Source of the DNA: a virus
DNA length: 42,165 nt
Direction: 5' to 3' (one strand)
Virus record (IMG/VR): IMGVR_UViG_3300028809_000030
Coordinates: 1-42,165 of that record
The notes under the pieces are model-generated. The model was not told the origin of the DNA. It saw only the letters and a program-made list of their open reading frames with translations, and made no database searches. A program made the position numbers and the translations under genes. Of the stretch, positions 24,934 to 27,902 are shown in pieces; position 1 is the first letter of the stretch; each line of letters starts with the position of its first letter.

Positions 24934-25296
24934 ATGGCATCGAAACTTCGCGTGGAGTGGGTCCGTCTCCAGTCTCTGGACTCCAACGGTATCCAGGCCC
25001 TCCAGGCTATTCCCAGCACAACTCCGGTCACCAAGGCGATCACCGGCACGGCTCTTACCGGCGCTGGGCGCATTACCGTTCCGGCTTCGGCCAGCGGCTA
25101 CGGGCGTTTCCACGCTCGTTTCTGCTCCGACGTCGAGTGCATCGTGTCGTTCGCCCCGGCTGGCGACGCCGGTACAACCTACGACGCGTCGGCAGCCGAA
25201 GATACCGGTATCTGGATTCCGGCGAATACCCCGGTTCTCGTTCCGGTGACTCCCGGCCAGCTGATTTCCGCTGCGACCGGCCTCGCGTTCGCGTAA
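24934..25296 (+). CDS. Probable small virion protein, 120 aa (decoration-like)
   Basis: AAAGGA 7 nt before the ATG, with a dedicated promoter (24859-24887) and a stem-loop just upstream. The protein is beta-rich with many Ala/Thr/Gly/Pro (TKAITGTALTGAGRITV, GIWIPANTPVLVPVTPG) and no Lys-rich tail. Such single-promoter, beta-rich proteins are often capsid or tail decorations. This is inferred from composition, not from a recognised family. Confidence 0.7.
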   Translation: MASKLRVEWVRLQSLDSNGIQALQAIPSTTPVTKAITGTALTGAGRITVPASASGYGRFHARFCSDVECIVSFAPAGDAGTTYDASAAEDTGIWIPANTPVLVPVTPGQLISAATGLAFA

Positions 25297-25307
25297 TCCA
25301 CGCCTCC

Positions 25308-25336
25308 TTGACACTCTGACACCCGCATGGTAACCT
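25308..25336 (+). promoter_or_regulatory. Promoter for the Acb2-like gene
   Basis: TTGACA, 17 nt, TGG, TAACCT; an 11 bp inverted repeat brackets the -10. Confidence 0.82.
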
Positions 25337-25348
25337 GTGCGGGTGTCA
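25317..25348. promoter_or_regulatory. Inverted repeat over the Acb2-like gene promoter
   Basis: TGACACCCGCA / TGCGGGTGTCA, perfect 11 bp arms with 10 bp spacer enclosing TAACCT. Confidence 0.65.
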
Positions 25349-25366
25349 ACTTATAGGAGAGGTAAC

Positions 25367-25903
25367 GTGAACATACATAAGGCGCTGATTGACTTCTGGG
25401 AGGACCAAACCCCAGACAACACAGAAATACACTTCTCACCAAAAGGGATTGAAGAAGCATCGGCGGACGATGTAGAGTCGTTTAACAAGTTACTGAGGCA
25501 CTTGAAAGACGTAGGCTTCGACAGCAAGGTGGGAACCAACGGTGTGCTCCGTGTTTGGTGGCCTCATCCAACCAATCCGCGCCCCAACAGCGCCGAGTAC
25601 CCAATTCAGTCGCATGTATTCCAGGGCACACCGGACGCCCGGCTAGCGACCAAGGGTATGGCTACGGCCACCGGTCCATTCCGCCGTCGCTACCGCGCTC
25701 TAAGCAACGACGAAGTGCAACATCACGATAACATCAAGGATGTCGCGACGGAGCTCTGGAACCTCATCGAAGGCATCCCCGGTGTTCGTGACGCGCATTT
25801 GGACGATGTGGACACGCAAAATGTGGTCCGTCGCGACATGGCTCTGGCCCGCACCGCCCTTGAAGACACCGTGATGCGGGCGGTAAGGGCGCTGACTGCG
25901 TAA
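25367..25903 (+). CDS. Acb2/Tad1-like cyclic-oligonucleotide sponge (anti-CBASS) with N-terminal extension
   Basis: Start GTG at 25367, with TAGGAGAGG just upstream. The C-terminal ~72 residues have the Acb2/Tad1 helical-hairpin pattern: RYRALSNDEV (108-117), a helix with DNIKDVATELWNLIE (121-135), and VRRDMALARTALEDTVMRAV (154-173), ending RAL. Acb2 proteins bind CBASS and Thoeris cyclic nucleotide signals and so block abortive defence. Residues 1-90 are an extra, unrecognised domain; Acb2 alone is usually about 90 aa. Its promoter (25308-25336) carries an 11 bp inverted repeat. TAATG overlap to the next gene. The ligand is not predictable here. Confidence 0.7.
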   Translation: MNIHKALIDFWEDQTPDNTEIHFSPKGIEEASADDVESFNKLLRHLKDVGFDSKVGTNGVLRVWWPHPTNPRPNSAEYPIQSHVFQGTPDARLATKGMATATGPFRRRYRALSNDEVQHHDNIKDVATELWNLIEGIPGVRDAHLDDVDTQNVVRRDMALARTALEDTVMRAVRALTA

Positions 25904-26409
25904 TGGAAGATCGGACGGACGCTAACGGAGGCGGTTTCAACCCCATCGCTACCGACATACAGCACGACTTCGAAGTGTTTTCCACGCTTCCGAGGGCGTA
26001 TCGGCATGCGATAATAGAAGCCCGCTACAACTACAACGCCGATGAAGCTACCCGTCTCCTCAACGATATTCGCGTCGCCCTTTCGGCGGGGTCATACTTT
26101 CCGCCTGACCCAAATGAAGTAGTTTCCGAAGCGATCCGGCAGATCGCACTCAACGACGCTATGGGCGTCAAACTATCCATGGAGCAAAAATGGAAAGAAG
26201 TAAACTCAGCCCCACCGATCAGGCCGTCGAGTACGCGGCGCAATACGCCCATGAGGCGAACCGTGCGTATTGCGCCCTCCTCGGCGACAATTCTCAATCG
26301 CCTTGGAATGACGCTTCCGAGCACATCCAAGAGTCAGCCCGAGCCGGAGTTCGAGCTATTTGGTCCGGAGAGGTCCAGACTCCTGAAGACTCCCACAATT
26401 CGTGGCTGA
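25903..26409 (+). CDS. Hypothetical protein, 168 aa, with long out-of-phase overlap
   Basis: Coupled to the Acb2-like gene by TAATG. Residues 1-95 look like a normal helical protein (PRAYRHAIIEARYNYNADEATRLL, read as two adjoining helices). From about residue 96 the frame overlaps the RyR-domain gene by 220 bases and becomes Ser/Arg/Pro-rich, like a shadow frame. The authentic domain probably ends near residue 95 and the rest is a tolerated tail, unless a frameshift exists. Function unknown. Confidence 0.6.
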   Translation: MEDRTDANGGGFNPIATDIQHDFEVFSTLPRAYRHAIIEARYNYNADEATRLLNDIRVALSAGSYFPPDPNEVVSEAIRQIALNDAMGVKLSMEQKWKEVNSAPPIRPSSTRRNTPMRRTVRIAPSSATILNRLGMTLPSTSKSQPEPEFELFGPERSRLLKTPTIRG

Positions 26410-26585
26410 GGTTCAAGGAGGCCGACGGCTGGCATTACGGCCCGGTCAAGGACGAAATTCGCAAGACCCATCCGTGTTTCTTGCCGTACAAGGACCTTCC
26501 CGACAGCATGAAGGTCAAGGACTTCATTTTCCACGCCGTGGTTAAGGCCACCCTCGTTGTGCTGGGCCGTTCGCCCGCTGCTTGA
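26190..26585 (+). CDS. RyR-domain protein, 131 aa
   Basis: Carries the RyR-domain signature almost throughout: AHEANRAYCALLGD (20-33), SPWNDA, a Gly/Val turn, TPEDSHNSWLRFK (64-76), GWHYGPVKDEIRKTHPC (80-96), then PYKDLP and KVKDFIFHAVV. GGAG is 5 nt before the ATG. In prokaryotes this domain has been proposed to sense nucleotide-derived ligands in conflict systems. Sitting one gene after an Acb2-like sponge, it may be a second decoy or sensor for defence signals; that is inference. Its stop overlaps the next promoter's -35. Confidence 0.8.
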   Translation: MERSKLSPTDQAVEYAAQYAHEANRAYCALLGDNSQSPWNDASEHIQESARAGVRAIWSGEVQTPEDSHNSWLRFKEADGWHYGPVKDEIRKTHPCFLPYKDLPDSMKVKDFIFHAVVKATLVVLGRSPAA

Positions 26586-26610
26586 CGTCGTCCCTGCCCC
26601 ATGCTAGGGT
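26582..26610 (+). promoter_or_regulatory. Promoter for 26649 gene and the morphogenesis region
   Basis: TTGACG, 17 nt, TGC, TAGGGT; its -35 overlaps the RyR gene stop. Confidence 0.8.
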
Positions 26611-26645
26611 TCTCCGTGCGTACTCATTCCAGCGCACGGAGAACC
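26608..26645. promoter_or_regulatory. Inverted repeat over the 26649 promoter and ribosome site
   Basis: GGTTCTCCGTGCG / CGCACGGAGAACC, perfect 13 bp arms with 12 bp spacer. The left arm starts inside the -10, and the right arm contains the CGGAGA ribosome site. DNA operator more likely than RNA hairpin, since the expected start site lies within the left arm. Confidence 0.65.
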
Positions 26646-26648
26646 AAA

Positions 26649-27419
26649 TTGACAGAAGCGAAGAAGCCGGATACCTCTCCGGCAGCGAAGCCGACGCCGA
26701 AGGATGCGGAGGCGTCGAAGCCCGATCCGAAGCCGGAGACCCAGGCTCAGGGCTCTCCCCAGCCGTTCAAAGCGGACGAGAACCCCGGCAAGGGCGGCGT
26801 GGAAGCGACCAAGGGCAACGAGAGCCCGAACACGGTGGCGAGCCAGACGACCGACAACTCCCCGGCGACCCCTCCGGGCGATCACGCCAACGTTGCTGGT
26901 GCGACACAGGACCCGAAGAACGCCGCCGTTGTCGGTTCGGAAGATGTTGGCGGCAAGAAGGGCGAGATCGAGTCCAAGCCGTCCGGCGACTACCTTGGCA
27001 ACGATCCGAAGCCGGGTGACGGCGTCGCGCAGAAGCAGGAAGCCGCCAGTCAGGCTGAACGCGCTGCTGAGTTGAAGGGCGTCGACGCCCAGACTGCTGA
27101 CGCTGGCATTCGGTCTGCGTCGTCCATCGCGGACGCCGAATTCGAACGCGCTCGCAACGAGCCGGAGAGCCCGCTGCCCTCCGATGAGGCGCTCGACGCA
27201 CTGGATGGCCTTTCGGCGGGCGTCGCTCAGTCCGGTGAAATGCTGCAGGACCAGCAGGAAGCCGACCGGGTGATGAAGAAGCTCACCAACCTCGCTTTGG
27301 ACCTTCTTCCCACTTCGTCGCCCGACTCGTACACTCTGTTCGGGTACGGCGGCGTTCACGTCACTGTCGGCGACCTGCGTGTTCTGGGCCGCATCCTGCG
27401 CAAGCACCAGAAGGACTAA
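26649..27419 (+). CDS. Hypothetical protein with disordered N-terminus, 256 aa; leads morphogenesis region
   Basis: Start TTG at 26649 with CGGAGA about 8 nt upstream. Residues 1-150 are Lys/Pro/Asp/Gly-rich and low in complexity. The C-terminal ~60 residues are ordered (MKKLTNLALDLLP, then YTLFGYGGVHVTVGDLRVLGRIL). Promoter 26582-26610 with a 13 bp inverted repeat over its -10 lies directly upstream. It precedes the terminase genes, so a packaging or head role is possible but not shown. Confidence 0.7.
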   Translation: MTEAKKPDTSPAAKPTPKDAEASKPDPKPETQAQGSPQPFKADENPGKGGVEATKGNESPNTVASQTTDNSPATPPGDHANVAGATQDPKNAAVVGSEDVGGKKGEIESKPSGDYLGNDPKPGDGVAQKQEAASQAERAAELKGVDAQTADAGIRSASSIADAEFERARNEPESPLPSDEALDALDGLSAGVAQSGEMLQDQQEADRVMKKLTNLALDLLPTSSPDSYTLFGYGGVHVTVGDLRVLGRILRKHQKD

Positions 27420-27422
27420 CCT

Positions 27423-27902
27423 ATGGACGGTCTGCCGGGCGATCTTATCCCACTCCCAACTCGCCCGTGGGATATTCGCCCGGCAGAAATTCCGCTCGAC
27501 ACCGAAGAGTGTCGCACAGCGCTCTGGATGACGCGCGGCAACGTAACTGAGGCCGCTGCTATCTTGAAAATTACGTCGATGCGCCTTCGGCAGTTCATCG
27601 ACAAGTCGGAATACCTCAAGCGCGAGCAGTCAGAGGCTAAAGAACAGCTTCTGGACAAGGCCGAGTTCAACGTATATGAAGCGCTCAACGACATCGCTGA
27701 TCCGGGGCGCAAAGACAGCATGACGAGGTTTGTTTTGACCAATCTCGGTACGTCGCGCGGATACGGAAACGGCAAGGCCGGTGTCAACGTCAACCCAACT
27801 GGCAAGGGCCGCATGGTCATTATGTGGGACGACGGCACAGGCATTTCCGGCGACCCGGAGTCCGAGGGTGAGGTTATCGAAGGGCACGTTGTGAATGAGT
27901 GA
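27423..27902 (+). CDS. terS: Terminase small subunit
   Basis: 159 aa. HTH-like segment MTRGNVTEAAAILKITSMRLRQF split over about residues 36-58 fits the TerS DNA-binding domain. A helical oligomerisation region follows (LLDKAEFNVYEALNDI), then a Gly-rich, acidic C-terminus. It directly precedes and overlaps the large subunit by 8 bases. Recognises viral DNA for packaging. Confidence 0.85.
   Translation: MDGLPGDLIPLPTRPWDIRPAEIPLDTEECRTALWMTRGNVTEAAAILKITSMRLRQFIDKSEYLKREQSEAKEQLLDKAEFNVYEALNDIADPGRKDSMTRFVLTNLGTSRGYGNGKAGVNVNPTGKGRMVIMWDDGTGISGDPESEGEVIEGHVVNE

Follow-up and report, generated by a model that had tools for sequence, protein, structure and literature searches.

Phage proteins that sponge up the nucleotide signals of bacterial immunity have mostly been studied singly. 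Acb2 and Tad1 have been tied experimentally to the evasion of nucleotide immune signaling (PMC12043709, PMC12657218), and Tad1 carries an N-terminal antiparallel β sheet (PMC12043709). Acb4, a sponge directed against the cyclic oligonucleotide-based antiphage signaling system (CBASS), was assigned to the Pfam family PF13876 (PMC11722364). A May 2026 preprint (PMC13232231) describes phage proteins with a ryanodine receptor (RyR) domain, named RyDEP, that degrade or sequester the Thoeris signals 2'/3' cyclic ADP-ribose (2'/3'cADPR). One of them, gp78 of mycobacteriophage DyoEdafos, is a glycosidase of 2'cADPR and 3'cADPR and has Q54 among its mutated residues; six of eight other homologues bind 2'/3'cADPR, none of the eight cleaves it, and two sponge-type homologues lift Thoeris defense (PMC13232231). 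Here we analyzed the IMG/VR virus record IMGVR_UViG_3300028809_000030, a complete record of 42,165 bases (hereafter the window). Its region 25308-26585, from a TTGACA box through the stop codon of a RyR gene, lies in a set of three plus-strand genes, A, B and C, between promoters at 25307 and 26581. We consider it likely that A-B-C is one counter-defense transcription unit directed at the signals of both CBASS and Thoeris, located in a variable island upstream of the small terminase gene.

Results

A hairpin protein and a RyR protein in one unit

An earlier reading of the window, made from the letters alone (the sequence-only reading), had described a protein with an Acb2/Tad1-like C-terminal hairpin, one unknown gene and a RyR-domain protein. 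A hidden Markov model (HMM) search confirmed the whole arrangement, with PF24729 on A and PF02026 on C both over their Pfam cut-offs. The unit has the following features:

25307-25336, plus strand: sigma-70-like promoter for A-B-C, CTTGACA-N15-TGGTAACCT, with an extended -10 (pattern scan of the window)
25317-25348, no strand: perfect inverted repeat with 11 bp arms and a 10 bp spacer, overlapping the A-B-C promoter; its role is putative
25367-25903, plus strand: gene A, 178 aa, GTG start at 25367 and stop ending at 25903; N-terminal domain, flexible linker and Acb2/Tad1 hairpin
25367-25558, plus strand: N-terminal domain of A, about aa 1-64, predicted α-β-α-β-β (AlphaFold2, low to medium confidence), outside known families
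25691-25897, plus strand: Acb2/Tad1 helical hairpin of A, aa 109-177 (PF24729, model and alignments)
25903-26409, plus strand: gene B, 168 aa, small helical protein with homologues in the island (alignment A3, leave-one-out HMM)
26190-26585, plus strand: gene C, 131 aa, RyR-domain protein of the RyDEP family (PF02026, PHROG and residues)

PF24729 covers aa 109-177 of A with an E-value of 2e-12; its score of 47.5 bits (49 bits when the whole record was scanned) exceeds the cut-off of 27. Thirteen hairpins, that of the window among them, were combined into a profile, which matched PaP2 Acb2 (E 6.7e-8), 'Acb2 homolog 43' (E 6.7e-7), T4 Acb2 (E 1.1e-6) and Tad1 (E 1.3e-4) in the PDB; phmmer with A alone against the PDB gave no meaningful match. 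Y109 and K124 of A align with Y11 and K26 of PaP2 Acb2 and with Y8 and K23 of a T4-type protein, and we take Y11, K26 and R67 of PaP2 Acb2 to be functionally important residues. Y109 thus stands in register with the Tyr (Y11 of Acb2, Y8 of T4) that makes contact with the cyclic dinucleotide. In the AlphaFold2 model of A, which has a mean predicted local distance difference test score (pLDDT) of 67.5, the hairpin part (aa 112-178) is confident with a pLDDT of 81-97 per ten residues, the linker (aa 75-102) is of very low confidence, and the N-terminal domain reaches 46-77 per ten residues. The first five Foldseek matches of this model were Acb2 and T4 Vs.4 chains (probability 0.97-1.00, E 0.06-0.3). 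Tad1 was not among the listed Foldseek and VIA-align matches, which is not evidence against Tad1 kinship.

With Acb2 (PaP2 p26 and T4 Vs.4), A shares the hairpin family, the equivalents of Y11 and K26 and the top Foldseek matches, but Acb2 is a single-domain protein (p26 and Vs.4 chains of 89-93 aa in the PDB), whereas A extends to 178 aa with its N-terminal domain and linker. Since Acb2 proper is a single-domain chain, A is not a strict Acb2, and its two-domain plan is closer to that of Tad1, in which an N-terminal domain likewise precedes C-terminal helices and which was found by the same hairpin profile. Unlike the β sheet of Tad1, however, the N-terminal part of A is modeled, at low confidence, as α-β-α-β-β.

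The RyR assignment of C rests on PF02026 (E 8.6e-10, 39.2 bits against a cut-off of 27.4), PHROG 18865 (E 8.7e-40) and the RyDEP crystal entry PDB 35tm (E 2.8e-12), and relatives of C occur in 286 of 50,697 phage records. Because a pattern scan with C alone retrieved no relatives, alignment A1 was used instead. H69, W72, H94 and D111 of C align with the ligand-binding or catalytic residues H75, W78, H100 and D117 of DyoEdafos gp78, which are present in 183, 182, 181 and 183 of 183 aligned sequences, respectively; C and gp78 are identical at 35 of 130 aligned residues. C thus resembles RyDEP (PMC13232231; PDB 35TM) in belonging to PF02026, in its retained pocket residues and in being a small stand-alone RyR protein, but it lacks Q54 and its partner is a hairpin protein, whereas the RyDEP partners are NARP1 NAD-synthesis enzymes. 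From the residue pattern we infer that C belongs not with gp78 but among the common members, which are probably of the sponge type. The earlier proposal that RyR domains bind nucleotide-derived ligands agrees with the action of phage RyR proteins on cADPR signals (PMC13232231). In the RyR protein of Pectobacterium phage phiA41 (locus L002), Arg replaces the adenine-stacking Trp (W78 of RyDEP) that is kept in 182 of the 183 aligned sequences.

Gene B, whose last 220 nt overlap gene C, has no Pfam family over cut-off, and its structure model (pLDDT 56) was too poor for a structure search. Homologues from eight of the terminase relatives described below were aligned (alignment A3), and leave-one-out HMMs regained 9 of 9 members, that of the window with an E-value of 2.7e-5 among 24,331 open reading frames (ORFs). 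The tails of the homologues overlap the next gene in at least five relatives (L103, L105, L111, L115 and L117). B is still without a known family, as the sequence-only reading had it, but it is no outsider: because its homologues recur in the same island, we count it as part of the set. PADLOC gave no match for A, B or C, and a whole-record Pfam scan of the window phage found both PF13876 (Acb4) and PF11195 (Tad2) absent.

RyR and sponge domains paired elsewhere

RyR and hairpin domains recur as neighbors and as single-chain fusions in unrelated phages. A RyR alignment led to 579 viral loci and 165 loci in prokaryote genomes, and the best 80 of each were analyzed. RyR was fused to, or within 200 nt of, a hairpin, Acb4 or Tad2 domain in 12 of 80 viral loci (0.50 expected, P 1.9e-15) and 7 of 80 genome loci (0.42 expected, P 9.8e-8), by a test that assumes uniform placement within each locus. 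Some loci seem to represent one element more than once (L055/L152, L030/L150, L105/L106, L109/L111 and L113/L114/L115/L124) and enter the counts given here and below unmerged. The genome count includes a weak hairpin match in L176 (19.8 bits, not Pfam-tested), without which it is 6 of 80. Because our local hairpin HMM was trained partly on viral matches, the genome set tests the pairing more independently. When the hairpins within the fetched loci were considered alone, 3 of 6 in the viral set (P 2.3e-4) and 4 of 7 in the genome set (P 4.1e-6) lay within 100 nt of RyR on the same strand. Hairpins beside RyR passed the Pfam cut-off in L082, L147, L158 (Bacillus canaveralius) and L184 (Nonomuraea), and two single proteins that pass both Pfam cut-offs join the domains in opposite orders, RyR-hairpin in L043 and hairpin-RyR in L074. 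Altogether, 10 of the 80 viral RyR records had PF24729 over cut-off (4 of 50 and 6 of 30).

The other two sponge families are joined to RyR as well. PF13876, of which a domain in L094 matches the Acb4 structure 9e4w (E 0.008), passed its cut-off in 11 of the 80 viral RyR records (6 of 50 and 5 of 30). RyR and PF13876, both over cut-off, share one ORF in nine proteins: L009 (Vibrio phage 1.151.O), L010 (Enterococcus phage Efm 3-10), L030, L039, L053, L078, L083, L093 and L150, with the order reversed in L053. In L078 (9824-10528), RyR appears by eye to be inserted within Acb4, of which the Pfam match covers positions 24-82. L179 is a RyR-Tad2 fusion (PF11195, 64.7 bits), and Tad2 lies 136 nt from RyR in L072.

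Further domains were seen next to RyR. A 'YIGRR'-like C-terminal domain follows RyR in the same ORF in L016, where it corresponds to phrog_11782, and in L036, L059, L063, L068, L071, L086, L151, L154, L156 and L007. An uncharacterized N-terminal domain precedes RyR in the same ORF in L002, L003, L017, L027 and L191; the N-terminal part of the phiA41 protein alone (within aa 1-73) matches Vibrio and Aeromonas phage proteins. A divergent hairpin-like family, phrog_1761/phrog_5120, was found in L029 (9695-10390), where it is fused to RyR, in L183 (6270-6482), 75 nt from RyR, and in L099 (4926-5378) and L117 (5082-5504). Compared with PF24729, the hairpin of these four loci reached an hhalign probability of 35% and gave no Pfam match; the family may be a further sponge family. 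In L056 (9466-10098), a stretch C-terminal to RyR without a Pfam match resembles by eye the Acb2-type hairpin of L147. L097 (143-569), on a short contig without RyR, has a hairpin gene followed by a second short ORF matched by the local hairpin HMM.

The families themselves are already known and their combination is new: the literature searched contained no mention of their pairing, of fusions that occur in both orders or of the exchangeable island described below. The text of the RyDEP preprint apart from its supplement contains no 'Acb2', 'Tad1', 'Acb4', 'hairpin' or 'fused' (PMC13232231), and the available text of the Acb4 preprint contains no 'RyR' or 'ryanodine' (PMC11722364). The RyDEP authors purified 'R12-like domains' of homologues (PMC13232231), so they may have met extra domains.

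A variable island upstream of the small terminase gene

The window belongs to a tailed phage: it encodes an SU10-like portal, and its large terminase gene has 65% DNA identity over 726 bases with Ochrobactrum phage vB_OspP_OH. A search with the large terminase yielded 35 related loci. The flanks of the unit in the window are as follows:

24934-25296, plus strand: gene of 120 aa on the left flank, with 72% identity in L094; sets the left edge of the variable island
26581-26610, plus strand: promoter of gene D and TerS, with the same pattern as that of A-B-C; bounds the unit on the right
26601-27419, plus strand: gene D, C-terminal segment kept in relatives; right edge of the island; start codon uncertain
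27423-27902, plus strand: TerS-like gene, conserved among the terminase relatives

TerS and the C-terminal part of gene D lie upstream of the large terminase in most relatives, and the space before them varies. RyR is present in this island in 11 of the 35 relatives. A hairpin precedes it by 14-53 nt in three of the 11 (L095, L105 and L106), an Acb4 domain follows it by 562-604 nt in seven (L108, L109, L111, L113, L114, L115 and L124), and neither was found near RyR in the remaining one, L118. Tad2 occupies the same island in L094 and L103. The PF24729 scan covered 20 of the 35 relatives, with four over cut-off, and the remainder were screened with the local hairpin HMM on the fetched stretch; in the whole records of the 35 relatives and the window, PF13876 passed its cut-off in 10 of 36 and PF11195 did so in 2 of 36. 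The order of the parts varies as well, being A-B-C in the window, B-A-C in L105, C-B-Acb4 in L111 and L115, and Tad2-B-Acb4 in L103. In the relatives, exchangeable sponge genes occupy the spot upstream of the small terminase gene. Acb4 and Tad2, both missing from the window phage, are found there in relatives, and in other loci they adjoin RyR or are fused to it. Phage anti-defense islands likewise cluster small counter-defense genes at one place (PMC11722364); the present island differs in that its recognized cargo consists of signal binders, whose domains also occur fused in a single chain.

The L105 protein combines an N-terminal domain with a hairpin, whereas those of L101, L103, L108, L111 and L115 combine a related domain with Acb4; a model of this domain built without L105 regained L105 with an E-value of 3.7e-8 among the 24,331 ORFs. 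The sequence-only reading had called the N-terminal domain of A new. It matched no known family, and no relative at the sequence level passed a test: leave-one-out HMMs of the N-terminal domains regained 7 of 9 members and missed those of the window and L094, and hhalign of the window's N-terminal stretch alone with the relatives' domain gave a probability of 15% (P 0.0017, collinear). Kinship of the window's domain with that of L094, L101, L103, L105, L108, L111, L115 and L117 is therefore suggestive, and we do not claim it.

Promoter and inverted repeat

The A-B-C promoter has the letters CTTGACA-N15-TGG-TAACCT. A loose pattern (CTTGAC, 16-19 bases, TA-N3-T/A) matched 11 sites in the window, mostly with TG ahead of the -10 box, of which six are on the plus strand (23467, 24740, 25307, 26581, 31514 and 35433) and the others on the minus strand (37540, 22396, 18075, 17605 and 11804), so that the pattern is phage-wide. 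A generic promoter scan did not report the promoter at 25307 because its -10 hexamer is weak.

The sequence-only reading had placed A-B-C under one promoter with an inverted-repeat operator. The promoter stands and the dyad is real: the window has nine perfect dyads with arms of at least 10, compared with 1.4 on average in five first-order Markov controls. The operator role is putative, since the next promoter has a different dyad and since several relatives have similar perfect dyads directly ahead of island genes. The former, a 13 bp dyad at 26608-26645 that overlaps the next promoter, has a sequence different from that at 25317-25348, which argues against a single repressor acting on both. 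With a transcription start about 7 nt past the -10 box, only the right arm would be transcribed, which would favor a DNA site. What is supported of the proposed module is the presence of two different families of nucleotide-signal binders in a compact unit, with the inverted repeat as a putative operator.

Discussion

If A-B-C acts as a counter-defense unit, A and C would be made together during infection. Acb2 and Tad1 act as hexamers that take up cyclic oligonucleotides or the Thoeris signal glycocyclic ADP-ribose (gcADPR). The C-terminal hairpin of A, probably as an oligomer, would sequester the cyclic di- or trinucleotides of CBASS, or gcADPR as Tad1 does, and C would bind the 2'/3'cADPR made by TIR enzymes of Thoeris and would more probably be a sponge than a glycosidase. 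With the CBASS and Thoeris signals taken up, neither effector would be triggered, and evasion would extend to two signal chemistries simultaneously. Gene B and the N-terminal domain of A may be accessory parts of the same modular kit.

Several results weigh against this picture. In VIA-align, unrelated helical hairpins scored as high as Acb2 (Z 8.3 versus 8.0 and 7.4), so the fold alone settles nothing about A; the VIA-align rows for A were dominated by such unrelated hairpins, from which Acb2 and T4 Vs.4, ranked first by Foldseek, could not be separated. Relatives of A were not found by tblastn in the 50,697 phage records, and of 12 stretches picked out by a pattern scan in IMG/VR, not one was confirmed. 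RyR has no sponge partner in 68 of 80 viral and 73 of 80 genome loci, and nine hand-picked RyR phages have no hairpin anywhere. At the position of Q54, where the alignment is loose, C has Ala, as do 135 of the 183 sequences. Finally, in some phages (L007) RyR genes stand amid structural genes, which fits counter-defense less well.

This last placement, and RyR genes beside those of ribonucleotide reductase (L004), would be expected if the RyR and hairpin domains bound ordinary nucleotides (ATP, NAD+, ADP-ribose) for metabolism or the virion and the link to immunity were secondary. The frequent C-terminal 'YIGRR' partner, which has no known function, and the position of RyDEP itself within an NAD-synthesis operon (PMC13232231) can be read in the same way. 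We nevertheless regard such a role as unlikely, since the recurrent RyR partners tested are sponge families (hairpin, Acb4 and Tad2) and RyDEP-type proteins restored phage growth against Thoeris (PMC13232231). Slightly less probable again is that the hairpin of A has lost ligand binding and serves only for oligomerization, with the N-terminal domain doing something unrelated. A does have this extra domain and an inter-helix turn longer than in most aligned hairpins, and relatives keep an N-terminal domain while the C-terminal module changes from the hairpin of L105 to the Acb4 of L101, L103, L108, L111 and L115; that swap, however, exchanges one sponge domain for another, and Y109 and K124 match the Acb2 residues noted above, among which the T4 Acb2 substitution Y8A disrupts cyclic dinucleotide binding (as cited in PMC12657218). 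That A and C are chance neighbors in a generic accessory region, without functional pairing, is very improbable: the island is variable, few RyR records have a hairpin over cut-off and B separates A from C, but the placement test and the hairpin-only counts in both sets, together with RyR fusions to three sponge families, of which two are joined to RyR in either order, speak against it.

Beyond the dual-signal unit itself, we lean, with little more than even confidence, toward a general design of multi-headed sponges assembled from interchangeable domains, in which a cADPR-binding RyR head adjoins, or shares one chain with, hairpin or Acb4 heads for CBASS or Tad2 heads for gcADPR. The window would then represent the operon form of this design. 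Through the same association, new sponge or auxiliary families may be represented by the RyR partners phrog_1761/phrog_5120, the 'YIGRR' domain and the 'CHKxVxAAKI' N-terminal domain, and by gene B.

If cADPR binders and cyclic-nucleotide binders are routinely paired or fused, one protein could be enough to disarm both CBASS and Thoeris, and co-localization with RyR would offer a way to find new signal sponges among uncharacterized phage families. Because Vibrio phage 1.151.O and Enterococcus phage Efm 3-10 hold such fusions, the idea can be tested directly. Panoptes-like systems sense sponges, and their response to proteins of dual specificity would be a related question. The two unrelated proteins that share this unit, together with the adjoining or fused domains of the same families in other phages, suggest a mix-and-match mode of multi-target immune evasion.

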